A model generated the notes under the pieces. The model was not told the DNA's origin, did no database searches, and saw only the letters and a list, made by a program, of their open reading frames with translations. 24,245 nucleotides of DNA, from positions 1-24,245 of the forward strand of contig JACKBR010000066.1 in NCBI GenBank assembly GCA_020634495.1, written 5' to 3'. Every line of letters begins with the position of its first letter. The stretch's first letter is position 1. Below are positions 1-24,152 of the stretch, one piece after another. This stretch comes from Ardenticatenaceae bacterium. Lineage in GTDB: Bacteria; Chloroflexota; Anaerolineae; Promineifilales; Promineifilaceae. A program made the translations under genes and the position numbers.

Positions 1-417
1 TGGCTTGTCTAAATTGCTCACTTCGGTAACCACATCGCCATTAAAGGCGGCGGCCAGGCCGCTTTCAATTGGGTATTGCTGACCAATCAGCTCTGGATTG
101 GTGGCGTACAAAACCACGCCGTCAGGGGACCAAACTTTGAAGGAGACGATTTGCGTGCCCAATGAGGTTTCGGCCAGCAGTCGTTCCAGAGCATCCACAT
201 TGACGGCGTATTTGTTTTCGCTTTCGGCCAGCCCTTGCAGATGGGGAGAGATGTAACTGTCGACGTAGAGGGCGGTAACGGCGGCGGTGCGGTTGGTAAC
301 GGCCGTTTCAATCTGCTGGCCAATCCATAAGCCAATCCCCACCATGCCGCCCAGCATCACCAGCAGACTAACAAGCATATACTGTTGTGCCAGCGTTAAC
401 GATTTTTTGGCAACCAT
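1..417 (-). CDS. Membrane sensor protein, probable sensor histidine kinase, N-terminal part only
   Basis: The reverse strand is open from an ATG at 417 to the window edge, giving 139 codons without a stop; the rest lies outside. Residues about 13-33 (YMLVSLLVMLGGMVGIGLWIG) form one membrane helix. A long helical stretch follows, then a segment reading FKVWSPDGVVLYATNPELIG and ending near the edge in an alternating hydrophobic pattern. This resembles the extracytoplasmic Cache-like sensor domain of bacterial sensor kinases, where a 'DG.v.y.t.p.liG' strand pair is common. No HAMP, kinase or GGDEF domain is visible, so the output domain is an inference. Start choice: GGAG lies 7 bases before ATG 417; an in-frame ATG at 429 is possible but has no Shine-Dalgarno sequence. 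Confidence 0.7.
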   Translation of the reverse strand, partial: MVAKKSLTLAQQYMLVSLLVMLGGMVGIGLWIGQQIETAVTNRTAAVTALYVDSYISPHLQGLAESENKYAVNVDALERLLAETSLGTQIVSFKVWSPDGVVLYATNPELIGQQYPIESGLAAAFNGDVVTEVSNLDKP

Positions 418-429
418 GCCCAACTCCAT

Positions 430-660
430 AAAACGGGGCAAGAAAGCGCGTCTACGCCTCTTCCTCTATAAGTAGTCAACCCTAAAAAATGATTATACCG
501 ACTTTGGCTAATTGCTCACATGGACTAAGGTCTGATCAATGCTGCCCTAGGGTCTGAGCCAGGTTGAGACCATCTCCCCTACTGCCGTGCCAGGCAAAAA
601 TTTACAATGAATTTATTCAATAAATGATTCTTTTTTGTGATTTGCTTGGGAAATCTTTTT
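430..660. other. Divergent intergenic region between the sensor gene and the sigma factor
   Basis: This stretch lies between the leftward sensor gene and the rightward sigma gene and should hold both promoters. It is AT-rich near 595-660 and includes an imperfect dyad around 610-630 (GAATTTATT and its near complement). I could not assign a convincing -35/-10 pair. The ECF-type elements found at 13808 and 14702 are not repeated here. Confidence 0.4.
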
Positions 661-1206
661 ATGTACGACGAAATGAAATTGCTGCATCAGGCCCGTTCCC
701 TAGACCAAGAGGCATTGGCTGAAGTACACAACAGATACTACGACTCGATCTATCGCTATATCGCTTTTCGGGTAAACGACACGCCAACGGCCGAAGATTT
801 AACCAGTGAAGTGTTTTTACGTTTACTAAGCGCCCTGCGGGATAAATCGGCCCCACAAAACACGCTGCGTGGCTGGCTGTTTGGCGTGGCCTCTCGCGTG
901 CTCAAAGAACATTATCGCAAAAAGAAACGGGACAGTTTTACCTTGCTCCATGACGATATTCCCTCAACGGAGCAAGGGATAGACCACCAGATTGACGCCA
1001 TTCTGCAAAACGAAAATTTACAGGCCGTTATGTCAAGTCTAACTGAAGACCAGCAAAATGTGCTGGCTTTGCGCTTTGGCTTTGGTATGCCCATTCAAGA
1101 AGTGGCCAACACCATGGGCAAAAGCGAAGGCTCCATAAAAATGTTGCAGACCAGAGCAATTGCTGCCATTTCTCAGCGGGTGATGCTGCAAGGGGTGCTG
1201 GCATGA
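661..1206 (+). CDS. ECF-type RNA polymerase sigma factor
   Basis: A 181-residue sigma-70 family protein that directs RNA polymerase to a dedicated promoter set. Region 2 is visible at about residues 20-60 (YYDSIYRYIAFRV, then TAEDLTSEVFLRLLSAL), the usual core-binding and -10 recognition part. Region 4 is at about 125-170 (LTEDQQNVLALRF, then a helix-turn-helix through SEGSIKMLQTRAI) and would read the -35 element. ATG 661 is preferred, with GGGAA 8 bases upstream; a GTG at 637 in the same frame would add eight residues. The stop codon overlaps the next start by 4 bases (ATGA), so the two are translationally coupled, as is typical for a sigma factor and its regulator. The target promoter is unknown. 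Confidence 0.9.
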   Translation: MYDEMKLLHQARSLDQEALAEVHNRYYDSIYRYIAFRVNDTPTAEDLTSEVFLRLLSALRDKSAPQNTLRGWLFGVASRVLKEHYRKKKRDSFTLLHDDIPSTEQGIDHQIDAILQNENLQAVMSSLTEDQQNVLALRFGFGMPIQEVANTMGKSEGSIKMLQTRAIAAISQRVMLQGVLA

Positions 1207-2432
1207 AAGTTGTTCAGGAGCAGATTTTGGTGGATTGCCTGGCGCAGTTTGAAGCTGGCGTTTCTGTTGAAGAATTAGTGGCCCAGTACCCGCAGGCAGC
1301 AGCGGAAATCGAGAAGTTTTTAGCGGTAGCAGCCCATTTGCAGCAGATGGGCTTGCAGCCAAGTTTGGCCGCCAAGCAGCAATCGCAGAAGCTGTTTTTG
1401 CAGCAAGCGGGGCAACTGCGTGCCAATCAGTGGCGATCCCGGTTTTCCTGGCGCAATGTGCAGCGTGCGCTGCTGCCGGTGGCTTCGCTGGCTGTTGTTA
1501 CGGTGCTGTTGGCGGTTAGTTTGCTTTTTGCTTCAGCTTCGGCGCTGCCGGGGGATTTGCTTTACAACACCAAACTGCTGGTGGAATCTTACCAGTTGGA
1601 GCAGGCCGATGACGGCACGGCCGTTTTCGACCTCAATGCGCAGCGGAATCAGGAGCGGATGCGGGAAGTGAAAGCCATTTTGCGCACCAACGAAACGGCC
1701 GATGTTTCTTTTGAAGGGCGCATCAATACCAAACAGGATCGCAATTGGATCATTGCTGGCGTGCCGGTGCGGGTCAATGAGCAAACGTTGGTTGAAGGGG
1801 ATGCTGCGGTGGGGGCAATGGTTTTGGTAAACGGCCGTACCCAAAATGGCCATCTTTATGCCAGCCACATCGTTGTTTTGAAAGAGGCCCAAGCCACGGT
1901 GACCCCTTCGCCCACGGGAACCGCCTTGCCAACAACACAGCCCACTGAAACGACCACCGCCAGCGCCACGCCCACACAAACGCTGCCCGCCAGCGCCACA
2001 CCAGAAATCACCGTTTTGCCAGGCGCTACCCAAACAACAGTGGGCCACACGCCAGCCGCTTCGCCAACGCCGCAGGCCAGCAGCACTCCCACAAAGGTGC
2101 CGCCAACGGCCACGGCCGTTCCTCCCACCGCCACCGCAGAACCCACCGACCTGCCAACGGCCGTTGCCAACGACAACGACAACGACAACGACGACAGCAG
2201 CAATGACAATTCCGGCAACGACAACGAGAATGACAACAACGACAACGACAACGATGATGACGGCAATGACAATGATGATGACGACAACGACAATGGCAAT
2301 TCTGGCAGCGGCAACAACGATAATGACAATGACAATTCGGACAATGACAACGACGATGACGACAACGACAACGATGATGATGACAACGATAACGACGACA
2401 ACGACAACGACAACGGCCGTCGGGATGATTAA
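1203..2432 (+). CDS. Single-pass membrane anti-sigma-like protein (DUF5667/DUF5666-like) with Thr/Pro stalk and Asp/Asn tail
   Basis: The roughly 409-residue product overlaps the sigma gene by 4 bases and is probably its membrane partner. Residues 1-85 are cytoplasmic and helical, and would be the sigma-binding part. About 88-112 is a membrane helix. It is followed by ALPGDLLYNTKLLVESYQL and a helical segment with Glu/Arg, which matches the DUF5667 pattern. About 166-226 (FEGRINTKQDRNWIIAGVPVRV onward) resembles a DUF5666 beta domain. Residues about 230-320 are a Thr/Pro/Ala-rich stalk like many O-glycosylated surface linkers. The last 85 or so residues are almost only Asp and Asn, with a few Ser/Gly, ending in GRRDD. 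The export direction is inferred from one helix and the low-complexity exterior. No zinc finger is present, unlike the anti-sigma at 13842. Confidence 0.8.
   Translation: MKVVQEQILVDCLAQFEAGVSVEELVAQYPQAAAEIEKFLAVAAHLQQMGLQPSLAAKQQSQKLFLQQAGQLRANQWRSRFSWRNVQRALLPVASLAVVTVLLAVSLLFASASALPGDLLYNTKLLVESYQLEQADDGTAVFDLNAQRNQERMREVKAILRTNETADVSFEGRINTKQDRNWIIAGVPVRVNEQTLVEGDAAVGAMVLVNGRTQNGHLYASHIVVLKEAQATVTPSPTGTALPTTQPTETTTASATPTQTLPASATPEITVLPGATQTTVGHTPAASPTPQASSTPTKVPPTATAVPPTATAEPTDLPTAVANDNDNDNDDSSNDNSGNDNENDNNDNDNDDDGNDNDDDDNDNGNSGSGNNDNDNDNSDNDNDDDDNDNDDDDNDNDDNDNDNGRRDD
2167..2415 (+). repeat. Imperfect GACAAC-type hexanucleotide repeat tract coding Asp-Asn
   Basis: About 250 bases at the 3' end of the anti-sigma-like gene consist mainly of GAC, GAT, AAC and AAT codons in near-alternation. 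Both codons of each residue are mixed, so this is not a fresh perfect microsatellite. The antisense strand shows long false reading frames because of it. It may be prone to length change by slippage. Confidence 0.85.
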
Positions 2433-2505
2433 CTGAGATCGATAAAAGCAAGATCGTTACTTTTTATGCAGCCTCGCGCACTCACTGGCGTATTGCGCTA
2501 AATAA

Positions 2506-2658: not shown

Positions 2659-4188
2659 ATGTTCAAGTTGACAGCCTTGCCTTCTTTTGACCGTTCAAAA
2701 AAAGCGACCAGCGATTTGCAGCAGTGGGTTACGCAGCGCGATTGGGTCTCTGTGGTTGTCTTTGCCCTGCCCTTGCTGCTCTACTGGCTCACCCTGGCCC
2801 CTACCATTTACAACCTGGACAGCGCTGAATTTACAACGGCCGTTGCCACCAATGGCATTATTCGGGCTACGGGCTATCCACTATTTTTGCTCCTGGGCAA
2901 ATTGTGGTCCTGGCTGCCGCTCAGCAGCGACATGGGCTACCGGATGAACTTTTTCTCTGCTTTCTTAAGTGCGCTGACCCTGCTGCAAGTGGAATTTATT
3001 TTACGCCGCCTTCAGGTGAATCCCTGGCTGCGCCTGGGCGCGCTGGGGCTGCTGGCCACCGCGCCCTATTTCTGGGCCATGTCGCTCATCGCGGAAGTCT
3101 ACACCCTGCACACCGCCCTGATGGCGGGCATCATTTTGACGCTGTTGCGCTGGGCAGACCAGCCCACGCCGCTGCGCTTGGCAATCCCCATCTTTTTAAT
3201 GACGGCCAGCCTGGGCAACCATATGGCGACGGTGCTGCTGGTGCCGGGGGCTGTTTGGTACGTGCTCACCAGCCATCCGGCCCAGCTAAAAAATTGGCGT
3301 GTATGGGCTGCGGGGGGAACGGCCGTACTGCTTGGCCTCACCATCTTCCTTATTTTGCCCCTTCGCTATGCCAGCCAGCCCATCTTTAACTACGCTGGCG
3401 AATATGATGCCAACGGCATCTTCCATCCCACCAACCTGGCCACGCTGTCCGGGCTGTGGTGGCTCATCACCGGGCAAACCTTTGCCGGGCAGATGTTTGG
3501 CTACCGGCTAAACGAAATCTGGCCGCAGGTGGCGGCTTATGGCGTGCAGCTGTGGACAGCATTTTTGGCCATCGGCATTGGGCCGGGGCTGCTGGGGTTG
3601 GTCATGCTTCCCCGGCGCAATTGGCGGTTGGGCGGGATGCTGCTGCTCATGTTTTTGACCAATGCCATCTTCTACATCAACTACCGGGTTGTGGACAAAG
3701 ACACCATGTTTTTGCCCACTTATCTTATTTGGGCCATCTGGTTGGGCGTTGGCTACCAGCAGTTGGCCAGCTGGCTGCACAGTCAGGCGTTTTTCACCCC
3801 CCGGCTGCTTCGCTACCTGGCGGTGGGGGCTGTGGTTTTGGCTGCCGGATTGAACTGGGGCCTGGTGGATCGTTCCCAAGATTGGAGCACGCGAGAAATG
3901 GCCGAGACGATTCTGCAAGAAGTCGAACCGAATGCGCTGGTTCTGGGCTGGTGGGATACGGTGCCTGCCGTGCAATATTTACAACTGGTTGAAGGCCAAC
4001 GCCCGGATGTGCAAACCATCAACCGCTTTCTTATTTCTGGCGAGGCAATGGAGACGTTGATTCTCAGCCAGGTCGATGAACGGCCGATTTATATCAACAA
4101 CCCGTCAATGGCGCTGCTTCAGCAAACCAAAGCGATACCCCTGGGGCCAATTTATAAGCTGGAGCGGCGTGTTGAAAATGTCCCGTAA
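2659..4188 (+). CDS. DUF2723 family GT-C type integral membrane glycosyltransferase
   Basis: A 509-residue protein with about ten or more hydrophobic helices. Residues 35-110 carry the DUF2723 signature: LAPTIYNLDSAEF (Asp54 and Glu57 in the first outer loop, the usual GT-C acidic site), then ATGYPLFLLLGKLWSWLP and YRMNFFSAFLSALT. Members are thought to transfer a sugar from a lipid-linked donor to proteins or lipids on the outer face of the membrane. Near 350, YRVVDKDTMFLPTYLIWAIW is another recurring family element. The last 100 residues are a soluble tail. AAGGAG sits 5 bases before the ATG. The Thr/Pro-rich exported proteins encoded nearby are plausible acceptors, but that link is inference. 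No partner gene fixes the sugar. Confidence 0.8.
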   Translation: MFKLTALPSFDRSKKATSDLQQWVTQRDWVSVVVFALPLLLYWLTLAPTIYNLDSAEFTTAVATNGIIRATGYPLFLLLGKLWSWLPLSSDMGYRMNFFSAFLSALTLLQVEFILRRLQVNPWLRLGALGLLATAPYFWAMSLIAEVYTLHTALMAGIILTLLRWADQPTPLRLAIPIFLMTASLGNHMATVLLVPGAVWYVLTSHPAQLKNWRVWAAGGTAVLLGLTIFLILPLRYASQPIFNYAGEYDANGIFHPTNLATLSGLWWLITGQTFAGQMFGYRLNEIWPQVAAYGVQLWTAFLAIGIGPGLLGLVMLPRRNWRLGGMLLLMFLTNAIFYINYRVVDKDTMFLPTYLIWAIWLGVGYQQLASWLHSQAFFTPRLLRYLAVGAVVLAAGLNWGLVDRSQDWSTREMAETILQEVEPNALVLGWWDTVPAVQYLQLVEGQRPDVQTINRFLISGEAMETLILSQVDERPIYINNPSMALLQQTKAIPLGPIYKLERRVENVP

Positions 4189-4720: not shown

Positions 4721-4836
4721 AAGCGACTTTTTGCCGTTTACACAGCGTTAATTGGGTTGGTTCGGTGATGGCTGGAAACGGCCGTTTGCCGCTAACAAAT
4801 TTTTATCCACTTTTTGTAGTTGCGAAGGAGGTAGCT

Positions 4837-5304
4837 ATGAAACAATTGAGTCAAAGGGCGATTGTACGAACGGTGTTTGCCCTGGTGATCCTGTTGGCTG
4901 GGGTCGCTATGGTGCCCTACGTGGATCGCCCTGCCGCTGCGCTGGAGTGGCGCATGATGGCCGGGGTGTATGCGCCGGAGCTGTCTGTACACGCCAGCGA
5001 AGGGGCACCGGGCAGCGCATTTGCCTTTACTGGCTCCGGTTTTCCGGCGCATGGTGTGGCTACGCTGTTTGTGAACGGCCGTTACTTAGGCCGCGTCATG
5101 ACAGATAGCCAAGGCAATGCCCAGTTCATTGTGCAAAGCCCGGCTTCCAGCATGGCCATTGGCCAGTACGACATCACGATGGAAGTAGACATGAATGCGT
5201 CTGCTACCACAGGGTTTAGCCTGCGACACGATGCTCCCCTGGTGATGCCTCCCGATGGCTTTGCTGGGTCAGTCTTTGGCTTTGGCCACCGGCTGCCCCG
5301 CTAA
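4837..5304 (+). CDS. Small secreted Ig-like domain protein, copy 2
   Basis: This 155-residue protein is paralogous to the preceding gene over its full length. Shared elements in the same order are a basic N-terminus and hydrophobic helix ending in VPYV, YAPELSVHASEGAPGSAFAFTGSGF, LFVNGRYLGRVMTDSQGNAQF, a 'TMEVDMNASA' strand and a final PPDGFAGSV (PPGGFSGPV in copy 1). The frame is open further upstream, but GAAGGAGG at 4824-4831 fixes the start at ATG 4837, which gives a signal-like N-terminus matching copy 1. The pair probably arose by tandem duplication. Protein identity is well below half by eye, so the duplication is old. Function is unknown. Confidence 0.75.
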   Translation: MKQLSQRAIVRTVFALVILLAGVAMVPYVDRPAAALEWRMMAGVYAPELSVHASEGAPGSAFAFTGSGFPAHGVATLFVNGRYLGRVMTDSQGNAQFIVQSPASSMAIGQYDITMEVDMNASATTGFSLRHDAPLVMPPDGFAGSVFGFGHRLPR

Positions 5305-5489: not shown

Positions 5490-6701
5490 ATGGACGTGAA
5501 ATTAGAAAGTTCGCCGCCAGCCACAACAATTTTTAGCCGCTTAACCAGTTTGAGCGTGCCCCGCTGGCTGTGGCTGCCGCTGACATTGTTTGTGGTTACG
5601 CGCCTGGGCGTGATGCTTGTGGCTTATCTGGCGGTGCCGCTGCTGCTGGATGCCACCTCGCCGCCACCGTACCATTTGCGCGGCACGGAGAATATTTTGC
5701 TGGATGTGTTTGCCAGCCGCTGGGATACGGGCTTTTACGTCAGCATTGTGGAAGAGGGGTACAAGTTTCAGGGGGTGCCGCTGCCGTCGGTAGCCTTTTT
5801 CCCGCTGCTGCCGCTGTTGATGGCGGCGCTGCTGCCTCTGGTGGGGGATGCGGCCGTTTCTGGCATTATCGTGAGCAATTTGGCTTTGTTGGGCACGGCC
5901 GTTTTCTTTTACCGTCTCGTGGCTGAAAACTGGTCACAAAAGGTGGCGGACCGGGCTGTCTGGTATTTGCTCATTTTTCCCCTGGCCTTTTATGGCTCGG
6001 CAATTTATACCGAATCCCTCTTTTTATTGGTGACCATTGCCGCCTACTACTTTGCCCGGCGCGGGCAGTGGCGCTACAGCGTGCCTTTTGCCATCGCCGC
6101 CACGCTGAGCCGCCTGGTGGGGCTGATCATTGTGCCCATGCTGCTGCTGGAGTGGTGGCGGCAGTGGCGGGCGAATGATGTGGGGGAACGGCCGTCTTTG
6201 TGGGCGTTGTTGGTTCCGGCCAGTGCGCCGCTGGGACTGGCCAGCTACATGGCCTACCTCTGGTACGTCTTTGGCGATGCCCTGGCCTTTGCCAATGCTT
6301 CCGCTGCCTGGGGGCGCGTGCCGCAATCCCCTTTTGAGACGGTGGCTGAACTGCTGCAACGGCCGTCCATCGGTTGGCTCAATGCCTTCATCAGCGGCCA
6401 AATCCACTTCGACAACTGGATTGATTTCACCTTCGTGACAGTTTTTCTCCTTTTGGGCATCGTGCTTTTGTACAAAGGCCGCTATGCCGAAGCAGCCTTT
6501 GTGCTGTTGGGCGTGCTCATTCCTTTTAGCTCTGGCTTGCTGATGAGCCAGCGGCGCTACATGTGGGTGTTGTTCCCGGCCTTCATTCTTTTGGCGGAAT
6601 GGGGCGAGCATCCCTGGGTGGATAAATTGATTACGGCCGTTTCCCTGCCGATGCTTGCTTTATTCACCGCCCTGTACGCCAACTGGTACTGGGTTGCCTA
6701 A
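5490..6701 (+). CDS. PIG-V-like mannosyltransferase family membrane protein
   Basis: The 403-residue protein has about eight to ten hydrophobic helices. Family-type elements are ASRWDTGFYVSIVEEGY (Trp78-Asp79 in the first outer loop), VAFFPLLPLLMAALLPL, AIYTESLFLLVTIAAYYFARRG and ATLSRLVGLIIVPMLLLEW. These are arranged as in bacterial relatives of PIG-V (GPI mannosyltransferase 2), which use polyprenyl-phosphate sugars outside the membrane. Bacteria do not make GPI anchors, so the acceptor here is unknown. The frame is open back to ATG 5355, but that would add 45 residues unlike the family, so ATG 5490 is preferred despite a weak ribosome site. It lies in one direction with the DUF2723 enzyme and the flippase-like gene, suggesting a glycan-export or surface-glycosylation set. 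Confidence 0.75.
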   Translation: MDVKLESSPPATTIFSRLTSLSVPRWLWLPLTLFVVTRLGVMLVAYLAVPLLLDATSPPPYHLRGTENILLDVFASRWDTGFYVSIVEEGYKFQGVPLPSVAFFPLLPLLMAALLPLVGDAAVSGIIVSNLALLGTAVFFYRLVAENWSQKVADRAVWYLLIFPLAFYGSAIYTESLFLLVTIAAYYFARRGQWRYSVPFAIAATLSRLVGLIIVPMLLLEWWRQWRANDVGERPSLWALLVPASAPLGLASYMAYLWYVFGDALAFANASAAWGRVPQSPFETVAELLQRPSIGWLNAFISGQIHFDNWIDFTFVTVFLLLGIVLLYKGRYAEAAFVLLGVLIPFSSGLLMSQRRYMWVLFPAFILLAEWGEHPWVDKLITAVSLPMLALFTALYANWYWVA

Positions 6702-6782: not shown

Positions 6783-7814
6783 ATGCAGGTAAGCGTACAG
6801 AAGAAGCGAAAATTTTGGCTAGGTATTGTCATTAGTTTGTTGTGCCTGGGGGGGATGTTTTGGCTGATACGGCCGTCTGACATTGCCCAGGCGATCCAAA
6901 AAGCCAACCCCTATTTTTTACTTTGGACAGCGTTATATTTGCTGCTTTACCTGCTGTTTCGGGCGGTGCGCTGGCGCGTTTTGCTTGGCAACCAGGTGAC
7001 GCTTAGCGACCTTTTCCACATTCAAAACGTGGGGCAAATGCTTACCCAACTGCTGCCCTTTCGCCTGGGGGACGTGGCGCGGGCGGTGCTGGTTGGGCAG
7101 CAGCCGGGTTTGACGGTGCCGCAGGGCGTGACGACGATGGTTGTGGAGCGTCTGCTGGACATGCTGCTCATGGTGTTGCTGCTGCCGCTCACCCTGCTGC
7201 AAATTGAAACGCTGCCAACCTGGCTGCGGCAGGCGGCGCTTTTTTCTGGTGCGGCCACCGTGGGTTTGGTGCTGTTTTTGGGCGTGTTGGCCAGGAAACG
7301 GCCGTTTGCCCACAAACTTCTAACCCGATTGGGTACGATGTGGCCCCGCCTGTCTACGCCGCAGCGCCGCCAACAGTTGGATAGTTTGCTAAACGGACTG
7401 CACGCCTTTACCCAATGGCGTCTGGCGTTGAAGGTGTTGGCCCTGAGTTTGCTCACCTGGCTGCCGGTGGTGCTGGCTTATCACGCTGCTTTGCAGGCGG
7501 TGCATTTGTCCCCTTCCTTAATAAATGCCACCTTCATCATGATTGCGGGCGCATTTGCCGTGGCTGCGCCTTCCTCACCCGGACAGATTGGCGTTTTCCA
7601 CATGGGCGTTATTGCCGCCATGACCGCCCTGGGGCAGCCAGCCGAGGCCGCGGCCTCGTTGGCCGTGCTGTACCACGCGCTCAACTTTTTGCTGATGGTG
7701 CTGGCTGGCGTGGTGGGGGTCAACAGTATTCAAATCTCTTTCCAGCGGCTGACGCAAACGCTTGGCTTCAGGTTTGGTTCGCCTTCCCCAGAGTTATCGG
7801 GCCATGTTTCATAA
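6783..7814 (+). CDS. Flippase-like membrane protein (lysylphosphatidylglycerol synthase TM-region/UPF0104 family)
   Basis: The 343-residue protein has about eight membrane helices. Hallmarks are RAVRWRVLLGNQ near residue 60, then NVGQMLTQLLPFRLGDVARAVLVG, VVERLLDMLLMVLLLPL and a late APSSPGQIGVFHMGVIAAMTALG. This is the PF03706-type fold also found in AglD and in the membrane half of MprF. Only the membrane part is present, without the aminoacyl-transferase domain, so lipid lysinylation is not expected. Such stand-alone proteins often sit with glycosyltransferases, as here, and may move or tether lipid-linked intermediates. GGAG lies 8 bases before ATG 6783. An in-frame ATG at 6771 lacks a ribosome site and would add four residues. 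The stop is 43 bases before the regulator gene. Confidence 0.8.
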   Translation: MQVSVQKKRKFWLGIVISLLCLGGMFWLIRPSDIAQAIQKANPYFLLWTALYLLLYLLFRAVRWRVLLGNQVTLSDLFHIQNVGQMLTQLLPFRLGDVARAVLVGQQPGLTVPQGVTTMVVERLLDMLLMVLLLPLTLLQIETLPTWLRQAALFSGAATVGLVLFLGVLARKRPFAHKLLTRLGTMWPRLSTPQRRQQLDSLLNGLHAFTQWRLALKVLALSLLTWLPVVLAYHAALQAVHLSPSLINATFIMIAGAFAVAAPSSPGQIGVFHMGVIAAMTALGQPAEAAASLAVLYHALNFLLMVLAGVVGVNSIQISFQRLTQTLGFRFGSPSPELSGHVS

Positions 7815-7857: not shown

Positions 7858-8541
7858 GTGCTCACTGAAACCACATTAAACCAACTTCTTTATCATTATC
7901 CCGCCATTCACCAACTGCCCGCCGATTTGCAGCACATGGTTTGCCAAACGGCCGTTACCATCCAGCTTCCGCCCCACCACATTCTTTTTAATGAAGGGGA
8001 TGCCTGCCTGAACTTTGTTATGCCCCTGTCTGGCAGCGTGCGGGTGGTGAAGCCAGAACGGTCGGGCAGAGAGCTGCTGCTCTACCGCATTCGCCCCGGC
8101 GACAGCTGCATCCTGACGGTGAGCTGTTTGTTAGGCAATCAAAAATATAACGCCAGGGGCATTGTAGACAGACCGGTAACGGCCGTTTCCCTCCCCAAAC
8201 CGTTATTTATAAACCTCATTACCTTTTCGGAAGCTTTCCGCGAACTTGTCTTTGAATTTTTTGGCCAGCGGCTAGGGCAGCTAATTCAGCTCATTGAGCA
8301 GGTGACGTTTCAAAAGCTGGACCAGCGGCTGGCCGCCATCTTGCTGCGCCGTGGCCCCGCCCTGCACACCACGCACCAGCAATTGGCCGATGAACTGGGC
8401 AGCGTTCGTGAAGTTATCAGCCGCCTGCTGAACGATTTTAAGGAGCAGGGCGCTATCTCCATTGAGCGCGGCAAAATTTTGGTCTTGAATGAGGCTGTTT
8501 TGCGGCAAACGGCCCAGACAGAAGGTGACTTTAGTCACTGA
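7858..8541 (+). CDS. Crp/Fnr family transcriptional regulator
   Basis: A 227-residue regulator with a cyclic-nucleotide-binding-type beta barrel (about 15-125; HILFNEGDACLNFVMPLSGSVRV, then LLYRIRPGDSCILTVSCLLGN), a long dimer helix (125-155) and a winged helix (170-212; THQQLADELGSVREVISRLLNDF). The recognition helix has Arg184, Glu185 and Arg189 with the spacing of E. coli CRP Arg180, Glu181 and Arg185, which read GTGA half-sites. The phosphate-binding cassette lacks the CRP-type GE...RSA pattern, so cAMP is unlikely to be the ligand. No N-terminal Fnr cysteine cluster is present; Cys84 and Cys90 are the only notable pair. It starts with GTG at 7858, and AGGGGA lies 7 bases upstream. Sites of the matching type occur at 8525 and 23585. 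Confidence 0.9.
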   Translation: MLTETTLNQLLYHYPAIHQLPADLQHMVCQTAVTIQLPPHHILFNEGDACLNFVMPLSGSVRVVKPERSGRELLLYRIRPGDSCILTVSCLLGNQKYNARGIVDRPVTAVSLPKPLFINLITFSEAFRELVFEFFGQRLGQLIQLIEQVTFQKLDQRLAAILLRRGPALHTTHQQLADELGSVREVISRLLNDFKEQGAISIERGKILVLNEAVLRQTAQTEGDFSH

Positions 8542-14695: not shown

Positions 14696-14701
14696 GTTTT
14701 C

Positions 14702-14735: not shown

Positions 14736-15008
14736 ATGCTGCTAAAAGGTACGAAGGGAAACGGCCGTTGGATTCACGAGCAAAATTTTAAGCTACAGAC
14801 TCCCAAATTTGGATGACAAATGCTAAAAAGACGGGTCTAATATGGTTAGCATCCTGCCCTGCCTCATACCAAATAGATTTACACAGCCCAAAGAAAAATT
14901 TGTGACGAATTCAACGTTAGCTTGTCTATGGTATTGAAATTCAGGTGGGGAAGCTTGTAATTTACACACAACGACTACATAAAAAGCCACAAAAATAAGG
15001 AGAGGTTC
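14736..15008 (+). other. Intergenic region upstream of the LysM protein gene
   Basis: About 270 bases with no gene. It holds one ACGGCCGT copy at 14761. A possible housekeeping promoter for the rightward gene is TTGAAA (14934-14939), 18 bases, TAATTT (14958-14963), which is a moderate match only. AAGGAG at 14997-15002 is the ribosome site of the next gene. Confidence 0.4.
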
Positions 15009-16001
15009 ATGTCTAAAGCAAAATTATCGGCATCTGAGTGGGAATTGGTGAAGGATGCCCCCTTTTGGGTAAATGCAGCGATGTCGGCCGCAGACGGCCG
15101 TGTTGCCCTCATTGTCCAACGCAAAGAAGCCAAAGCGCTGAGCCAGGCAATGGAAGCGTACAAATCAAATAACCAGCTGGTTCGTGATGTGGTTGCCAAC
15201 GAAGACGACCCAGATAAAGCTGTGGGCAAAGCATCTCAAAATGATGCCGAAGTAGCCCTTGGCCGCATCTCCAGGGTAGTTGAGAGCAAGCTTGGCGCTG
15301 ATGATTTGGACGAGTTCAATGCTTTTCTCTTAAGCATTGCCCGTTCTGTAGCCGAAGCTGCTGGCGAAGGCGTTTTGGGCATCGGCAAAAACACCAGCGA
15401 TGAAGAAAGCGAAATGCTGCAAAAGCTTGCCAAAGTGTTGCAGGCCACGCCTGCTCACAAAAAAGCGCGCCGCCAGGCCAAGCAGACAGCAGAGAAAGAA
15501 GAACGTGAAGCCGCCGCAGCAGCTCAGGCCAAGGCCGCCGCCCAGGCCAAAGCCGCAGCGGAAGCCAAAGCCAAAGCAGAGGCAAAGGCCAAAGCAGAAG
15601 CCACCGCAAAGGCGCAGGAAGAAGCGAAACAAGCCAAAGCTGCCGCAGAAATTCAGGCAAAGATGGCGGCCCAGCAGCGTAAGCGGGATGCCGAGGCTAA
15701 AGCCCGCGACTTAGCTATGGCGAAAGAAAAAGCAGAGCGTGAAGCCGAAGCCCAGGCCGCGGCGGAAGCCAAAGCTGCTGCCGAAGCTGAAGCCGCTGCC
15801 AAAGCTGCCAGCCAATCTCGCTTTAAGGAATTTATTGCTGAACACAAAGTTGTGTCTGGTGAAAACTTGAGCTTTATTTCCCAGAAATATTACAATACCC
15901 AGGCCAACTGGCGCTTAATTTACGAAGCCAACCAGGATGTCATTGGCGACAACCCGAACCTGATTCGGGTAGGCCAGGTGCTAAAGATTCCCAAGCTCTA
16001 A
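15009..16001 (+). CDS. Cytoplasmic Ala/Lys-rich coiled-coil protein with C-terminal LysM domain
   Basis: The 330-residue protein has three parts. Residues 1-150 are a helical domain (LSASEWELVKDAPFWVNAAMSAADGRVA, then a TerB-like run of helices) that I do not recognise by name. Residues about 152-275 are almost wholly Ala, Lys, Glu and Gln in a heptad-like TolA-style coiled coil. Residues about 280-330 are a LysM domain (HKVVSGENLSFISQKYYN, then WRLIYEANQD and NLIRVGQVLKIPKL). There is no signal peptide or membrane helix, so the LysM domain is probably cytoplasmic, as in the potassium-binding protein Kbp (YgaU), rather than peptidoglycan-bound. AAGGAG lies 6 bases before the ATG. The small membrane-protein gene follows 21 bases later. 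Confidence 0.8.
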   Translation: MSKAKLSASEWELVKDAPFWVNAAMSAADGRVALIVQRKEAKALSQAMEAYKSNNQLVRDVVANEDDPDKAVGKASQNDAEVALGRISRVVESKLGADDLDEFNAFLLSIARSVAEAAGEGVLGIGKNTSDEESEMLQKLAKVLQATPAHKKARRQAKQTAEKEEREAAAAAQAKAAAQAKAAAEAKAKAEAKAKAEATAKAQEEAKQAKAAAEIQAKMAAQQRKRDAEAKARDLAMAKEKAEREAEAQAAAEAKAAAEAEAAAKAASQSRFKEFIAEHKVVSGENLSFISQKYYNTQANWRLIYEANQDVIGDNPNLIRVGQVLKIPKL

Positions 16002-16267: not shown

Positions 16268-17839
16268 TTATGAATGTGTATCGATGGAGATGAGCAGGGC
16301 GCTCAGCTCAAACATTTTTTCAATGCGCGGCGGGGTGTACAGCTCTTTTTCAATCCACAACGCGGGACGGTCCAGGTTGGATTGTTCGCTAAATTGATAT
16401 AAATAGGCCTGCCCTTTGTGGAAGGCGCGGCGGCCTGCATCGGTTAGCAGGTTTTCTTTGTGCAGGGTGTAGAGCGCCAGCAGGGCATAGGCTGTTTCAG
16501 AGGTTGTGGCTTCGTGGTTAACGCCCCAGCCGCCGCTGTGGTGCTGGCTTTGGATGAGGTCGTCTTGGGCGTGCATCACGGCCGCATATCCAGAGGGTTC
16601 TGCGGCTAAGGCCAGCAGGGCGTGCAGGGTGTTGTAGAGCCAGGAAATGTGCCATTTGTCGTCCTTCCAACGGCCGTTTTCCCCTTGCATGTCTAGCAGA
16701 TATTGAACAGCGGCTTTGTCTCGCTGGCCAAACAGCCGCAAGGTGTGTACGGCACGGGCCGTTAAGGAAACGGATAGCTGAATTTCGCCAGCAAAAGCGT
16801 AATAAACCCCATCCCCTCGAAAACGATCCAGGACAGACGGGTCTAACATGTAGCCAGCCGCGTGGAGAATTGCCAGGGCTGCGGCCGTATCGTCGCCATC
16901 CTGGTAAAAATGATCGCTTAACCCAATGCCCTGGTTTGTCAGGGCAAACCCTAGGGCATCCAGCTGTGGTTGCAGCGCTTTTTGCAGCGATTGCTGACTT
17001 AGCAAGTCGGCAATGAGCAGCGGGTACAGGCCAAAAGCCAGTTCAAAGCGGTTGATTGGCCAGATGCCGGGGACCACGCCGGGAATGTTATAGCCGGTGA
17101 CCTGGGCAGCCTGGTGCAGGTAGGCTTCTGCCTGATGGCGTAACGGTTCTGTTTGTTCATCTTTTGGCAGGCGAGAGAGCCAAACGGCCGTTGCTGCCGG
17201 ACTATGCCCAATGCTGCCAGCCCCATCCAGGTAATCTGCTTCTGATTCATCTCCCCAGGCTTCCCAGGAGTGCATGGGGGGAGAGCCAGCATCTGGTTTG
17301 ATGAGCGAGATATATTTCAGCTTTTTGCGCCCCTGGCTTAAAAGCGCCGTGTTTCCCTGGCGGGGAATGTGTAATTTCAGGCGGGCCGCTTCGTCAATCA
17401 GGTAAGGGTAAATGAGTTCGGCCCCCACGGGCAGGCTGTCTGGCACCGTGTTGGCCCACAGCTCACGCTGAAACCGGAGATGGTCTAACCCGGCGGCAAT
17501 ATGTTCAGCGGCATCAACGATCTCTTTATATTGATGCAGGGCTAAAACGGCCGCAATGGTTGAGATGCGCCGGTACAGGGGCGCTGCCGGGCTGCCCCAA
17601 CCGCCATCTACCTGCTGCTGTCTTTTTAACCATTCCAGTCCGGGAATAACGCCCCCCGGCGGGGGATAGGCGCGTAGCACTTGTGCGGTATCGTAAACGG
17701 AGGCGCTGATACGGCCGCCGCCCATGCCTAACAGGGGAAGTAGCCCCTGGATGCGAGCGAGGGTGGGTGATTCTGTGGTAAAGGGAATTAAGGTTGTACG
17801 GCCGTAAGGTTCTCTACGCCATTCGCGTTGTGTCTGCAT
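16268..17839 (-). CDS. Class II terpene cyclase, probable diterpene (copalyl-diphosphate-type) synthase
   Basis: A 523-residue enzyme with the class II cyclase acid motif DxDD as Asp-Gly-Asp-Asp at 314-317 (FYQDGDDTAAAL), where the middle Asp protonates the substrate. Repeats of the alpha-barrel QW type are visible: QQQVDGGWGSPAAPLYRRIST (about 74-94), DMQGENGRWKDDKWH (about 383-397) and QSQHHSGGWGVNHEATTSETAYALLAL (about 430-456). The C-terminal WIEKELYTPPRIEKMFELSALL resembles bacterial copalyl diphosphate synthases. At this length it is shorter than squalene-hopene cyclases (about 630-720) and lacks the class I DDxxD motif, so a single-function class II diterpene cyclase is favoured. GGAGG lies 7 bases before ATG 17839; an upstream ATG at 17857 has no ribosome site. 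No prenyl synthase or class I partner is in the window. Confidence 0.82.
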   Translation of the reverse strand: MQTQREWRREPYGRTTLIPFTTESPTLARIQGLLPLLGMGGGRISASVYDTAQVLRAYPPPGGVIPGLEWLKRQQQVDGGWGSPAAPLYRRISTIAAVLALHQYKEIVDAAEHIAAGLDHLRFQRELWANTVPDSLPVGAELIYPYLIDEAARLKLHIPRQGNTALLSQGRKKLKYISLIKPDAGSPPMHSWEAWGDESEADYLDGAGSIGHSPAATAVWLSRLPKDEQTEPLRHQAEAYLHQAAQVTGYNIPGVVPGIWPINRFELAFGLYPLLIADLLSQQSLQKALQPQLDALGFALTNQGIGLSDHFYQDGDDTAAALAILHAAGYMLDPSVLDRFRGDGVYYAFAGEIQLSVSLTARAVHTLRLFGQRDKAAVQYLLDMQGENGRWKDDKWHISWLYNTLHALLALAAEPSGYAAVMHAQDDLIQSQHHSGGWGVNHEATTSETAYALLALYTLHKENLLTDAGRRAFHKGQAYLYQFSEQSNLDRPALWIEKELYTPPRIEKMFELSALLISIDTHS

Positions 17840-18208
17840 GAAATATCCTCCATCCAACTAGAAAACTGCTTAGTCAATTAACGGAACTCAGGACAATTCA
17901 AAAAGAGAGAAGCAAGCGTTGATAAAATCCTAAATTACCTCAACCGGAAAACGGCCGTGATGGTTTATTTCATTGAATCGGGTTAAGGCAATAGTGAGGA
18001 GATTTGGGTGTCTTTGGCTCTGACATCAAGCTCCGTTGGGCAACGGCTGCATAATAACAAAACATCCTGCCGAGGGAAAACGACGATAGTACTAAAATCA
18101 TATGACAAATGTCCCAAACACAGCGTTGGGCGCACAATTGTTCTAATTTTGCTATAATTGGCAAATTTGGCAACCAGCTTGCTTTTGCAAACAACAAAAG
18201 AGGACTTC
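17840..18208 (+). promoter_or_regulatory. Divergent intergenic region with an extended -10 promoter for the ABC exporter
   Basis: About 370 bases without a supported gene. TGC-TATAAT at 18150-18158 is a consensus extended -10 hexamer; the -35 is poor, as is common for this type. It would start the transcript near 18165, about 44 bases before the ABC gene's start. One ACGGCCGT copy is at 17951. The promoter of the leftward cyclase should also lie here but was not resolved. Confidence 0.6.
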
Positions 18209-19963
18209 TTGAGCAAAAAAGAGTTTCGTGTTGAAAACGAATATTTTTACAATCGGGGTGGCCCTGTCCGGTGGATATTTTCCCATGTGATGCGCTACCC
18301 CTGGCTGCCGCTGCTAGTCACCATTGCCTCCATCATCAACAACTTTGCTGCCAGCTTTGTGCAGGTTTTTATCGGCCGTTCCTTTGATTTAATTAGCCTG
18401 CCCAATTGGGAAGTATCTGCTTTGCTTGCTCTGGCTTTGGCTGTGTTTGGCGCAGTGGCTGCCCAAAGCGTTTTGGGCATTACCCGCAACTACACCAACG
18501 AATTCATCGCTCAACTTGTGGAGCGCAATACGCGCGATGAGCTGTATGTTAGCCTGCTGGGCAAAAGCCAAACCTTTCATGGCCGGCAGCGCATTGGCGA
18601 CATCATGGCCCGGGCAACAAATGACGTGCGGGCGCTAAACATTATGTTTAGTCCGGGCATTATGCTGCTCATCGATGGCCTGATGGGCATTGTGGCCCCC
18701 ATCGTGCTCATCGCCACGCTGCGGCTGGAACTGCTGCTGGTGCCAGCCATTTTTCTGGTGCTGTTTGTGGTCACCGTGTGGGATTATGCCCGGCAGCTCA
18801 ATCCGGTAAGCCTGTCTATGCGTGAGCAGTTTGGCACGATGAACGCGGGTTTGGCCGAATCAATTGGCGGCATTGAGGTGGTGAAGGGCAACGCCCAGGA
18901 ACGACAAGAAATCCAAAACTTTGCCGCAGATGCCGGGCAGTTTCGGGATTATTTTGTAAAGCAAGGGGTTATTCAGGCGCGATACCTGCCCTTGCTGGTG
19001 TTTAGCCTTTGTCTGGGCGGTGGGTTTTTCCACGCCATGTGGCTGTGGCGCGGGGGCACGCTTACTCTGGGTGAGGTAGTGACGTTTATGGGCCTGTTTG
19101 GCATTTTGCGTTTTCCCACCTTCATCTCCATTTTTTCATTTAATCTGGTGCAGCTGGGCATTGCCAGCGCCCGCCGCATTTTAGAGATGATTAATGATGA
19201 GACCAATTTGGATGAAAACGAAGCGGGGCATCAGGCCACAATTCGGGGGCAGGTGACGTTTGAAAATGTCAGTTTTGGCTACAATGGCGAACCGGTGCTG
19301 GACGGTATTTCTTTTTCGGTGGAGCCGGGGCAAACGGTGGCCATTGTGGGGCAGACTGGCTCTGGTAAAACGACGTTGACGCGCTTGATTAACCGGATTT
19401 TTGATGCGGGGAACGGCCGTATCCTCATTGATGGCTGTGACGTGCGCGACTGGAGCCTGGAATCCCTGCGCTCCCAAATTTCCACAATCGAACAAGACAT
19501 CTTTTTATTTTCGCGCACGCTGGCGGAAAATATTGCCTTTGGCGTGCCCAACGCCACCCAGCCAGACATTGAGCAGGCGGCCAAAGAAGCCCAGGCCCAC
19601 GACTTCATCACGAGCTTCAACGAGGGGTACGACACCGAAGTGGGCGAGCGGGGTGTGACGCTTTCTGGCGGGCAGCGCCAGCGCATTGCCATTGCCCGCG
19701 CCTTCCTCACCAATCCGCGCATTCTCATTCTGGACGACAGCACCAGCGCCATCGACAGTGCCACCGAAGACCAGATTCAGCAAGCCATGCGCCGCATCAG
19801 CCGCCAGCGCACCACGTTCCTGATCACCCATCGCCTGTCGCAAATTCGCTGGGCCGACAAGATTGTGGTGTTGAGCAACGGCCGTCTCACCGACCAGGGC
19901 ACCCACGAGGAACTGCTGGCCCGCAGCCCTGCCTACCAGCGCATCTTTGCTCGATATGAATAG
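18209..19963 (+). CDS. ABC exporter half-transporter, subunit 1 (degenerate ATP site)
   Basis: A 584-residue type IV ABC exporter half. About 30-330 is the six-helix membrane domain (HVMRYPWLPLLVTIASIINNF onward). The nucleotide-binding domain has Walker A GQTGSGKTT (about 380), the Q-loop in STIEQDIFLF, signature LSGGQRQR (about 485), Walker B ILILDDSTSAID and the switch His in THRLSQ. The residue after the Walker B Asp is Asp510, not the catalytic Glu. This marks the degenerate-site subunit of heterodimeric exporters such as TM287/288, BmrCD or TmrAB. The partner is the gene at 21576. TTG 18209 with AAGAGGA upstream is the chosen start; the in-frame TTG at 18158 overlaps the -10 box and is unlikely. 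The substrate is unknown (drug, lipid or peptide). Confidence 0.9.
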   Translation: MSKKEFRVENEYFYNRGGPVRWIFSHVMRYPWLPLLVTIASIINNFAASFVQVFIGRSFDLISLPNWEVSALLALALAVFGAVAAQSVLGITRNYTNEFIAQLVERNTRDELYVSLLGKSQTFHGRQRIGDIMARATNDVRALNIMFSPGIMLLIDGLMGIVAPIVLIATLRLELLLVPAIFLVLFVVTVWDYARQLNPVSLSMREQFGTMNAGLAESIGGIEVVKGNAQERQEIQNFAADAGQFRDYFVKQGVIQARYLPLLVFSLCLGGGFFHAMWLWRGGTLTLGEVVTFMGLFGILRFPTFISIFSFNLVQLGIASARRILEMINDETNLDENEAGHQATIRGQVTFENVSFGYNGEPVLDGISFSVEPGQTVAIVGQTGSGKTTLTRLINRIFDAGNGRILIDGCDVRDWSLESLRSQISTIEQDIFLFSRTLAENIAFGVPNATQPDIEQAAKEAQAHDFITSFNEGYDTEVGERGVTLSGGQRQRIAIARAFLTNPRILILDDSTSAIDSATEDQIQQAMRRISRQRTTFLITHRLSQIRWADKIVVLSNGRLTDQGTHEELLARSPAYQRIFARYE

Positions 19964-20387: not shown

Positions 20388-20870
20388 GCCTTACAGGTTG
20401 AGGCTGAACGCCGGATTGACAGCCCACAAAACGAACGATTCATCCGGGCCAGTACAAAACGATGCCGAACCGGAAACTATAGCACTAGCGAAATTCATTA
20501 CTATGCCACACCAGAAGAAACGCCTGCCAAAAATGGCTGGTCTAATGGCCTGAGTATCGTCAAGAAATTGATAAAGATGAACTTCATCCGTTGATTCTGG
20601 CGGCGACTTTCCGTTATCAGTTTGTGGTCATTCACCCGTTTGATGATGGGAACGGCCGTATGGCCCTCCTCATGAATCTCATCTTCATGCAAGCGGGCTT
20701 TCCCGTCATCATCCATACGAGGACAATAATTGCATCTAGCCCTTGAACAAGCGGACGCAGGTGAGCTTGAGCTGTTCATTGTTCACATCGGCAATCAACT
20801 CCTCAATCTCCTGACCTGTTTTTGCGCGGTACCAGAGGTGAAGATTGAAAGTCGAAGATTTTTGACATGA
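20388..20870 (+). pseudogene. Decayed Fic-family (AMPylase-type) gene
   Basis: Three reading-frame segments together read as the C-terminal part of a Fic protein. Segment one gives ERFIRASTKRCRTGNYSTSEIHYYATPEETPAK. Segment two, after a shift near 20535-20557, gives RQEIDKDELHPLILAATFRYQ and IHPFDDGNGRMALLMNLIFMQAGFPV, with the Fic core HPFxDGNGR. Segment three, after a shift near 20730, gives LALEQADAGELELFIVHIGNQLLNLL and ends at TGA 20868. The Arg normally three residues after GNGR is missing, as if one codon was lost. Active Fic proteins transfer AMP to target hydroxyls; this copy cannot. The N-terminal half is absent. Confidence 0.8.
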
Positions 20871-21575: not shown

Positions 21576-23435
21576 ATGGGTTTTATTTTAGATGGTTTAG
21601 ACACTGAAGATTATGACCGCAGCTACTCGGATCGGGAGCTGTTGGGGCGGATTGTGGGGTATTTTCGGCCGTATTCCAGACAGATGGCGCTGGTGGCGGT
21701 GATGATTACCCTGAATTCGGTGGCGGGTACGGCCGGGCCAATTATTATTGCCAAGGCGATTGATTTGATTGTGGCTGATCCCACCACGCGCACAATGCTG
21801 CTGCTGGCGGGCGGCGTCTCGCTGATGGGCGCTTCGGCCTGGGTGTTCAACTTTATCCGCCAATATTTTTCGGCGCGAATTGTGGGCAACGTGGTGTTGC
21901 AGCTGCGTGAAGATGTGTTTACCGCCACCATCAACCACGATTTGTCGTTTTACGACGAGCATCCTTCGGGCAAGATTGTCAGCCGGGTCACCTCAGACAC
22001 GCAGGATTTTGCGGCCGTTGTGGATTTGTCGCTGAACTTGCTGAGCCAGGTGCTGCTGGTGCTCATCCTGACGGGCTGGCTGTTTAGCATCAACGTCTGG
22101 CTGACGCTGATTCTCATCGGCATGACGCCGCTGGCGGTGGCGATTGCCCTGAGCTTCCGCAGCATTGCCCGCCGTGTGACGCAGGATGCCCGCCGGGTGA
22201 CGGCCAAAATCAATGCCCAAATTCAGGAGTCGGTGAGCGGCATCATTGTGGCCAAGGGCTTCCGGCAAGAAGCGGCCATCTACGCCACGTTTCACGACAA
22301 TAACCGGCAGGGATATTCGGTGGGCGTGCGGCGCGGACTGGTGCTCATTTCCATTTTTCCCATCATGGTCATTGCTTCGGGGTTGGGTACGGCCGTTCTT
22401 GTTTACTCCGGCGGTCTGGCTACATTGCCCGATTCATTTTTGGGCGGCCTGGCTGGCTTGTCGTCTGGGGATTGGTATTTGTACATGCAGGCAGTGGGCT
22501 TTTACTGGTTCCCCATGACCAGCATCGCCTCCTTCTGGAGCCAGTTCCAGGATGGCCTGTCGGCTTCTGAGCGCGTCTTTGCTCTTATTGATTTGGAGCC
22601 AAAGGTAAAGCAGTCGGCTGCTCACCTGCTGGATGGCACTTTGCGGGGCGAGATTCGCTTTGAAAAGGTGCGCTTCAGCTACACAGACAAAGAAACAGTG
22701 CTGCCGGAGTTTTCGCTGACGATTGCCCCCGGCGAAACGGTGGCTCTGGTAGGGCACACTGGCGCGGGTAAAAGCTCCATTGCCAAATTAATTAACCGCT
22801 TTTATGAGTTTCAAGACGGCCGTATTCTGGTAGACGGTCTCGATATTCGCGCACTCGATTTGGGCAGCTATCGCCAGCAGATTGGGCTGGTGCCGCAGGA
22901 GCCGTTTCTGTTTTCTGGCACCATTCGCGACAATATTCGCTACGGCCGTCCCGATGCCGACGATGCCCAGGTAGTTGCTGCTGCCAACCGGATTAGCCAG
23001 GGCGAATGGCTGCGCGGCCTGGGGCACGGTCTGGATACCGATGTGGGCGAGCGGGGCAGCAATCTATCCATGGGACAGCGGCAGCTGGTGGCCATGGCTA
23101 GAGTGCTGCTCAAAAATCCAGCCATCTTCATTTTGGATGAAGCGACCGCCAGCGTAGACCCTTTCACGGAAACACAAATTCAGGAAGGGCTGGACGAGGT
23201 GATGCGCGAGCGCACGGCCATTGTCATTGCCCACCGGCTGAGCACGGTAAAAAATGCAGACCGGATCATTGTGATGGGGAACGGCCGTATTATCGAAGAA
23301 GGTACCCACGGCAGCCTGATGGCCGACAGCGGTCACTACGCCGAGCTGTACAACACCTACTTCCGGCACCAGTCGCTGGAGTACATAGATAGTTTTGCTT
23401 TAGAGTTGAATGTGGATAATCCTTTGGAAAATTAA
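21576..23435 (+). CDS. ABC exporter half-transporter, subunit 2 (canonical catalytic site)
   Basis: A 619-residue type IV ABC exporter half. It has a soluble N-terminal head (1-30), a six-helix membrane domain (about 35-330, with [22 protein letters not shown] as the first coupling region) and an ATPase domain. Motifs are Walker [10 protein letters not shown] (about 393), Q-loop [10 protein letters not shown], signature LSMGQRQL (about 497), Walker [13 protein letters not shown] with catalytic Glu522, and IAHRLST. Glu522 with the altered signature LSMGQ complements subunit 1 (Asp510 with LSGGQ), so the pair should form one active and one degenerate ATP site. AAGG about 7 bases upstream is a weak ribosome site. 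Between the halves lies a 1.6-kb gap with a duplicate 5' end and decayed genes, so they may no longer share one transcript. Confidence 0.92.
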
Positions 23436-23460: not shown

Positions 23461-23544
23461 ACGGCCGTTACCCGCCTCGACAACGTTTACGGCGACCGCA
23501 ATCTGGTTTGCGCCTGCCTGCCCATCGAGGCATACGAAAGTTAA
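23461..23544 (+). pseudogene. gcvP: C-terminal remnant of glycine dehydrogenase (gcvP)
   Basis: Twenty-seven codons before TAA 23542 read [21 protein letters not shown] and end IEAYES. '[13 protein letters not shown]...Y' is the highly conserved last segment of glycine cleavage P-protein. Nothing of the remaining protein lies upstream, because the ABC gene ends only 25 bases before. There is no start codon or ribosome site, so this is a relic or a rearrangement junction. It begins exactly with an ACGGCCGT copy. Confidence 0.75.
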
Positions 23545-23584: not shown

Positions 23585-23628
23585 TGTGATTTTTGTCACA
23601 TGACGGTGGCGTCGGTTAGATTTATAAT
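23585..23628 (+). promoter_or_regulatory. Promoter with a CRP-type operator at class II position
   Basis: TGTGA-TTTTTG-TCACA at 23585-23600 is a perfect match to the CRP consensus half-sites. ATGACG (23600-23605) as a weak -35, a 17-base spacer and TATAAT (23623-23628) follow. The expected transcript start near 23634-23635 places the operator centre about 42 bases upstream, the class II activator position. The Crp/Fnr regulator at 7858 has the residues to read this half-site. Confidence 0.75.
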
Positions 23629-23638
23629 AAAAGGTGAT

Positions 23639-23714
23639 CGCTGCACTCGTTGTAGCGGCTGATACAAAGATTCGTGTTAAGCAGCAGCCGAGGAATATCG
23701 GCTGCTGTTTTTTT
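23639..23714 (+). promoter_or_regulatory. Leader with an intrinsic terminator: putative attenuator or short RNA
   Basis: The first hairpin is CGCTGCA/TGTAGCG (23639-23657). The second, CAGCAGCCGA/TCGGCTGCTG (23682-23707) with seven T after it, is a textbook terminator placed before the gene's ribosome site. CGGCTG (23656-23661) could instead pair with CAGCCG (23685-23690), which would break both hairpins. This is the arrangement of an attenuator. Alternatively the promoter makes a terminated RNA of about 80 bases. No known riboswitch class was recognised. Confidence 0.65.
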
Positions 23715-23744
23715 ATTGGGGCCTGCAACAAATGGAGGTGTGTA

Positions 23745-24152
23745 ATGACCAGCTATCAGCCTGTTCTGAAGCGCAAGCATAAGCACAACTATTTGCCGAT
23801 TGTGGTTGGCATCTTGTTGGTGCTCATTGCTGTTGCTATTGCGTATCTGGTTGTGACGTCAGCCATCGTGACGACAGCGGAAGTCCGTAACCCGTTGGCC
23901 GTTAATCCAGAATTGAAAACAGTGGCTCTGTATGAAGGTGTTGTATCTGCTCCTTCCCTGGCCGAGAATCCAGAATTGATCAGCTTCCAACATTTTGTGA
24001 CGCTGGAAAGTGAGAAAGCAGAACGGAATATCTTTGCCGAAAATCCAGAGTTAACGGCCGTTCAACATTACGTCGCTGCCAGAAGTGGACTGCGTAATGA
24101 GCTAGCCATCAACCCGGAGTTGTCCTGGTACTACCGTTACGCAAGCAAATAA
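23745..24152 (+). CDS. Single-pass membrane protein with four NPEL repeats
   Basis: A 135-residue protein. Residues 1-16 are basic (KRKHKHNY), about 17-40 form one membrane helix (LPIVVGILLVLIAVAIAYLVV), and the rest is exterior by the positive-inside rule. The tail carries four copies of Asn-Pro-Glu-Leu at 54, 75, 100 and 123, each preceded by Ala-x (AVNPEL, AENPEL, AENPEL, AINPEL) and spaced 21-25 residues apart. Aromatic and His residues follow (FQHFV, VQHYV, YYRYA). I do not recognise the family. GGAGGTG lies 4 bases before ATG 23745; the frame is open further upstream, but that would run through the leader hairpins. Expression is probably controlled by the CRP-type promoter and the leader. 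Confidence 0.75.
   Translation: MTSYQPVLKRKHKHNYLPIVVGILLVLIAVAIAYLVVTSAIVTTAEVRNPLAVNPELKTVALYEGVVSAPSLAENPELISFQHFVTLESEKAERNIFAENPELTAVQHYVAARSGLRNELAINPELSWYYRYASK

Follow-up and report, generated by a model that had tools for sequence, protein, structure and literature searches.

A highly iterated palindrome with a CGGCCG core and variable flanks in one clade of Chloroflexota

The octamer ACGGCCGT, which is its own reverse complement, is a highly iterated palindrome (HIP) of one clade of Chloroflexota. It was noticed in a contig of an Ardenticatenaceae bacterium (JACKBR010000066.1, assembly GCA_020634495.1), analysed here over its whole length of 24,245 b and called the window below. A first-pass annotation had put the number of copies at about 42 against an expectation below one and had likened the word to HIP1 of cyanobacteria. 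Exact counting indeed gives 42 copies, spanning positions 299 to 24061, while 100 dinucleotide-preserving shuffles of the window contain 0.40 copies on average and 3 at most, none of the 100 reaching 42. The runner-up among the palindromic 8-mers of the window occurs only 4 times.

Thirty-seven of the 42 copies fall within called open reading frames (ORFs), where they are split 19, 14 and 4 over the three codon phases, and the other five lie in the 4,198 b outside called ORFs (1.19 per kb). Numbered from the first position and listed without strand, copies 1 to 10 are found at 299..306, 1617..1624, 1831..1838, 2112..2119, 2157..2164, 2413..2420, 2836..2843, 3319..3326, 4778..4785 and 5075..5082; copies 11 to 20 at 5895..5902, 6188..6195, 6359..6366, 6633..6640, 6869..6876, 7298..7305, 7948..7955, 8179..8186, 8776..8783 and 9757..9764; copies 21 to 30 at 9910..9917, 11533..11540, 11806..11813, 12200..12207, 12352..12359, 12622..12629, 14372..14379, 14761..14768, 15094..15101 and 16670..16677; and copies 31 to 42 at 17184..17191, 17798..17805, 17951..17958, 19413..19420, 19878..19885, 20652..20659, 22389..22396, 22816..22823, 22942..22949, 23281..23288, 23461..23468 and 24054..24061. 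The earlier statements that all three codon phases are used and that copies 28, 33 and 41 are intergenic are borne out, each of the latter sitting between listed ORFs. Copies 25 and 26 are not independent because they lie 270 bp apart in a period-270 tandem repeat; this repeat (12337-12860) belongs to a 1,515-aa PKD-domain protein. Another tandem-repeat tract, rich in CAACGA, occupies 2168-2415 in a protein with DUF5666. The AT-rich insert at 20871-21429 (36% GC), upstream of the second MsbA-like ABC gene, had been singled out as free of copies. This is true but uninformative since only 0.97 copies would be expected there at the density of the window, and the absence was rejected as evidence. 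An Rfam search of the window returned 0 matches at the gathering threshold.

The same excess is found in related genomes rich in the word or its core, referred to as carriers. Counts are far from a Markov expectation, with observed-to-expected ratios of 38-54 under an order-2 model for the window and for 40-200 kb from each of five carriers. When the word is masked in the background, 1,816 copies are observed in 942 kb of carrier DNA, window included, compared to 25.6-28.5 expected. With the encoded protein sequences and codon usage taken into account, the three phases are still enriched 5.4-6.2-fold, 13-20-fold and 35-77-fold, and DNA outside ORFs in the window and carriers holds 1.05-1.7 copies per kb; codon usage thus does not explain an enrichment that extends to all phases and to non-ORF DNA. 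Spacing is near random, counts per 5 kb being close to Poisson in most stretches, and no regional pattern of copies was seen over stretches of up to 200 kb from each genome. One-base variants of the word occur at 0.44-1.03 times expectation, depending on position, when the change is in the core and at 1.6-1.8 times when it is in one of the two outer positions. These outer variants are uneven: TCGGCCGT and ACGGCCGA reach 3-4 times expectation, CCGGCCGT and ACGGCCGG stay at or below it. The scarcity of core variants was considered as proof of a restoring repair and dropped, the range of 0.44-1.03 being too weak.

Some further features of composition were noted in the sampled DNA of these relatives. 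In genomes G004, G005, G001 and G002 GGGCCC is strongly depleted, the sample from G001 containing 2 copies where 119 are expected, and in G005 and G001 CCCGGG ranks with the lowest palindromic hexamers. This has the look of restriction avoidance. A 5.6-kb stretch of 41% GC in G002 (contig C98, L238, about 8556-14120) is without the octamer, with a chance of about 0.005 for that single sample, uncorrected for the others, and is perhaps recently acquired DNA.

Genome-wide counts were obtained from relatives of the window's genome, not from that genome itself. Its closest relatives are metagenome-assembled genomes (MAGs) of Chloroflexota/Anaerolineae: the MsbA-like ABC protein encoded at 21576-23435 is 92% identical in G016 (MAG KLAP72) and 91% in G011 (MAG SJ142, Anaerolineae). 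Most other carriers tested have a counterpart about 70-78% identical to it, and in the remaining ones the best match is at 51-60%. Scanning a species-genome collection for three ACGGCCGT close together gave at least 119 stretches, and further lineages may exist; among the matches listed are many Chloroflexota MAGs and scattered others. In six of the scattered non-Chloroflexota genomes, counted whole, copies range from 9 to 540 and the density does not exceed about 66 per Mb. Whole-genome counts for 17 Chloroflexota genomes range from 6,316 to 15,176, and those for the reversed word TGCCGGCA from 40 to 459; one genome of 7.2 Mb, for example, has 15,031 and 130, respectively. In a class sample of 396 genomes, taken as one draw, 19 carry between 991 and 2,102 copies per Mb; the genome ranking after them has 514, and the great majority have fewer than 100. 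Seven of these 19 are new, which brings the octamer-rich Chloroflexota genomes to 24, at 0.99-2.1 copies per kb. Across these 24 genomes the reversed word is rarer than ACGGCCGT by 17 to 201 times, with a median of about 53.

Individual copies are kept largely unchanged across species, over long periods, at synonymous positions. Between G004 and G005, at about 84% DNA identity, 41 of 47 copies are identical compared to 41% of 8-mers of the same composition, and between G005 and G001, again at about 84%, 35 of 38 are identical compared to 38%. The window aligns with the sampled part of G011 over 6.8 kb at 81.6% identity. Nine of the ten alignable copies are identical there (copies 27, 30, 31, 32, 34, 35, 37, 39 and 40), copy 38 reading ACGGCCAT in G011, whereas the identical fraction of 156 same-composition 8-mers is 0.385. 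This is further supported by codons at unchanged amino acids: those inside copies are kept more often than identical codons outside them in all 21 genome pairs compared, the pairs sharing genomes. Kept codons number 139 of 141 (94.6 expected), 122 of 126 (87.5) and 108 of 108 (93.0) in example pairs, 33 of 38 (19.5) and 45 of 60 (29.2) in further ones, and 10 of 13 (8.4) in the weakest. In rpoB the two best columns are ACGGCCGT in 20 and 18 of 21 octamer genomes, and most of the remaining core sites are less conserved than these. The distance to the nearest copy has no effect on conservation (341 comparisons, 290 conserved, p 0.81), and maintenance dependent on spacing was discarded, as neither spacing nor distance-to-neighbour tests gave a signal.

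The hexamer CGGCCG is present in carrier genomes at about 1.2 to 5 per kb, and the bases around it differ between them. Four genomes are rich in the hexamer only, namely G174 (21,019 CGGCCG versus 132 GCCGGC), G300 (19,906 versus 768), G226 (25,568 versus 7,284) and G368 (19,809 versus 1,835); their outer bases show little preference in 36-59 kb sampled. In G204 65 of 75 sampled cores read GCGGCCGC, the NotI site, and its whole genome of 8.0 Mb contains 13,814 cores versus 51 GCCGGC. In G117 62 of 75 sampled cores read TCGGCCGA. The outer pair is A..T in 24 genomes, T..A in one and G..C in one, with little preference in others.

These types were placed on an RpoB tree of 81 rows, built by a quick search with Shimodaira-Hasegawa-like approximate likelihood-ratio test (SH-aLRT) support. 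A first tree left out five of 70 genomes (G002, G396 and G261 without a match, G106 and G368 as fragments); the second was also without G119, a long branch, and of 19 added genomes without G392 (no match) and G266 (fragment), so that G368 has no place on it. One clade of 34 rows with SH-aLRT 100 unites G174, G300, G226, G204, G117 and 22 of the 24 A..T genomes, those that could be placed. It also includes G352 and G325, both without excess, and a group with raised core and few octamers (G309, G058, G137, G090 and G345). In the sister group G246/G338/G291 the core occurs at 2.6-3.3 per kb, 1.3 to 1.8 times the reversed hexamer. G117 is sister to G174, and the A..T type requires two changes on the tree. 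The simplest reading is one clade and one core with changing flanks. In a separate branch of the class (G178, G062, G160 and G293; L315, L319, L258 and L256) CGCGCG is iterated, with 130 copies in 20 kb of G062 against 12 expected from base composition, and CGGCCG is nearly absent (92, 162, 200 and 35 copies in the order given). This may be a further palindrome habit of CG-NN-CG layout, although CG dinucleotides in general are raised.

The word is also found in phage DNA. A scan of virus contigs for clustered ACGGCCGT gave 14 stretches, and seven records were then counted whole; the counts provide no estimate for phages in general. Four records contain 226 copies in 100.4 kb, 227 in 65.5 kb, 106 in 46.2 kb and 85 in 33.5 kb. 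The second, of 65,512 b, is a tailed-phage record with genes for major head, portal, head morphogenesis and terminase proteins; its copies fall in all phases, at a density above that of any host genome counted. Genes for partition and for FtsK- or terminase-like proteins are present in the 100-kb and 46-kb records, each of which may be a phage, a plasmid or a phage-plasmid.

HIPs occur in coding and non-coding DNA, as does ACGGCCGT, and selection on HIP1 was reportedly studied by Xu and others in 2018. Chi sites are likewise 8-base words, marking DNA for recombination, but they are non-palindromic and sparser, with 1008 GCTGGTGG in the 4.64-Mb genome of E. coli. The likeness to HIP1 (GCGATCGC) is closer: both are 8-base palindromes with a CG-NN-CG core and softer outer bases, widespread in their group with exceptions. 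The proposed analogy holds up in sequence-level comparisons, namely density in relatives, soft outer bases, use of all phases, presence in non-coding DNA and conservation across species. The density of 991 to 2,102 per Mb in the 24 genomes compares with about 500-2500 per Mb for HIPs, and in HIP1 one-base departures cluster at the two end positions (Elhai 2015, PMC4390886). There are differences as well. The core is CGGCCG, not that of GCGATCGC, the phylum is Chloroflexota, not cyanobacteria, the outer pair varies within one clade (A..T, T..A, G..C or no clear preference), and no methyltransferase family among four tested is shared. HIP words change in cyanobacteria too: the alternates TCGATCGA, GGGATCCC, GGCGCC, rCCGGy and GCsGC are reported for one or few genomes each, TCGATCGA differing from HIP1 by its outer pair (PMC4390886), whereas here a fixed core runs through the clade with several flank types. 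The main text of that article, which covers 97 cyanobacteria, is without CGGCCG and without Chloroflexi, and in titles and abstract openings from literature searches of partial coverage no palindrome of this kind is described in Chloroflexota. The CGGCCG system resembles HIP1 in its behaviour but is a HIP system of its own, in which the core is fixed and the flanks are switchable.

The factor behind it and its function we infer from these patterns. With confidence a little short of even, we favour a sequence-specific reader protein with a role in repair, recombination or self-recognition. A DNA-binding protein inherited through the clade would recognise CGGCCG, in most branches together with the pair that flanks it. 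Losing a copy would be disfavoured site by site, irrespective of coding, phase or spacing, either by selection or by a repair that restores the word. The most likely job of such a protein might be to take part in DNA repair, recombination or self-recognition, word-bearing DNA being treated as the cell's own. Such a job would accord with a word that has no preferred spacing or phase, is present in phage DNA and has, among the four families tested, no methyltransferase family common to its carriers.

Several observations weigh against this reading. Three of the seven virus records contain only 5, 12 and 16 copies, the densities of the others are biased upward and word-free phages are missed because the scan selects clustered copies, and the host of the phage record is inferred from the shared word only. 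CGGCCG with other flanks is also well kept between G004 and G005 (8 of 11), though poorly between G005 and G001 (4 of 18), and in the weakest pairs identity of the whole octamer falls to 15 of 35 (G001-G013) and 4 of 9 (G005-G002). The T..A and G..C types are each represented by one genome, and the data would suit selection as well as word-restoring repair. Finally, the four methyltransferase families yield no factor common to the carriers, and methyltransferases of other families, or missed in incomplete MAGs, might yet read the word.

The role of HIP1 itself is still at the stage of proposed models in Elhai 2015, where a HIP is expected to come with at least one methyltransferase able to modify it (PMC4390886). 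By that model a cognate enzyme would modify CGGCCG or GGCC, and methylation-directed mismatch repair would ratchet near-sites into the palindrome. We regard this as unlikely here, although the core shares the CG-NN-CG layout with CGATCG of HIP1, the outermost bases are where departures are in excess, as in HIP1, and Dam-like D12 genes are frequent in carriers. For comparison, GGm4CC methylation is reported in Synechocystis (PMC6560206), and GANTC, TTAA and GCWGC methylation in another group of Anaerolineae (PMC6329791). We examined the C5, N4/N6, D12 and PF02384 families (PF00145, PF01555, PF02086 and PF02384) in 27 carriers, i.e. the 24 octamer genomes with G300, G174 and G226. The first-pass annotation had suggested looking for a methyltransferase recognising CGGCCG; within these four families none was found as a common feature of carriers, and each was rejected as the common factor. 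C5 enzymes are absent from 12 of the 27, for N4/N6 enzymes the matches in G005 and G190 are no more than weak and G226 has none, and PF02384 is missing from five of 35 genomes, four of them the carriers G190, G387, G226 and G368. G226, with all its cores, matches none of the four families, although a single-genome absence is no proof because MAG completeness is not given.

D12 is found at E<1e-40 in 22 of 27 carriers and in 6 of 10 non-carriers. In G005 the enzyme is similar to DpnM (E 2e-64) and to Dam of E. coli, so that GATC specificity is likely. The gene was found in seven of eight neighbourhoods, and in these seven the starts of neighbouring ORFs reveal no obvious restriction partner. 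One carrier's D12 is matched at E<=1e-15 in 164 of 396 class genomes, mostly non-carriers, and D12 was rejected as a HIP-specific enzyme on these grounds; relatives are also present in G352 and G325, two non-carriers within the clade. These results suggest that not every carrier needs a methyltransferase of a common family.

That the palindrome serves chromosome organisation, as the site of a nucleoid-associated or segregation protein, is also doubtful. Such a role would agree with a placement that is strand-symmetric and near random in both coding and non-coding DNA and with site-by-site maintenance, and differing flanks would fit a co-evolving protein; a purely chromosomal role does not, however, predict a phage record denser than any host counted, albeit one that came from the clustered-copy scan, nor is there a regional pattern in stretches of up to 200 kb per genome. 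It is quite improbable that ACGGCCGT is a DNA uptake sequence of the kind that biased natural transformation has raised in number in Neisseriaceae and Pasteurellaceae. The many copies of a short conserved word, with their density and positional conservation, recall the DNA uptake sequences and uptake signal sequences of these families. In PMC1939737, where uptake words are discussed and a cyanobacterial palindrome is mentioned, the known uptake words are not palindromes, whereas ACGGCCGT is one and is frequent in the phage record; a tolerant receptor would moreover be expected to leave many core one-off variants, of which there is no excess. An artefact of composition or codon usage has next to no probability even though Thr-Ala-Val is the commonest phase, being refuted by the shuffles, the enrichment in all phases and in non-ORF DNA, and the rarity of the reversed word of equal composition.

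Returning to a reader protein, a bolder version would make the palindrome a clade-wide DNA identity code in which the fixed CGGCCG core is combined with a heritable, switchable outer pair as a lineage self-mark, read by a protein other than a methyltransferase and copied to excess by phages to pass as self; we consider this improbable as a whole.

The finding adds a second HIP system in another phylum, whose fixed core with several states of the flanks, near-losses and presence in a phage record provide natural contrasts. Among these are the sisters G117, with TCGGCCGA, and G174, without flank preference, and, within the clade, G352 and G325 without excess. That a methyltransferase of a common family may be dispensable in some carriers bears on the published HIP model, and the contrasts make the search for a reader protein practical.

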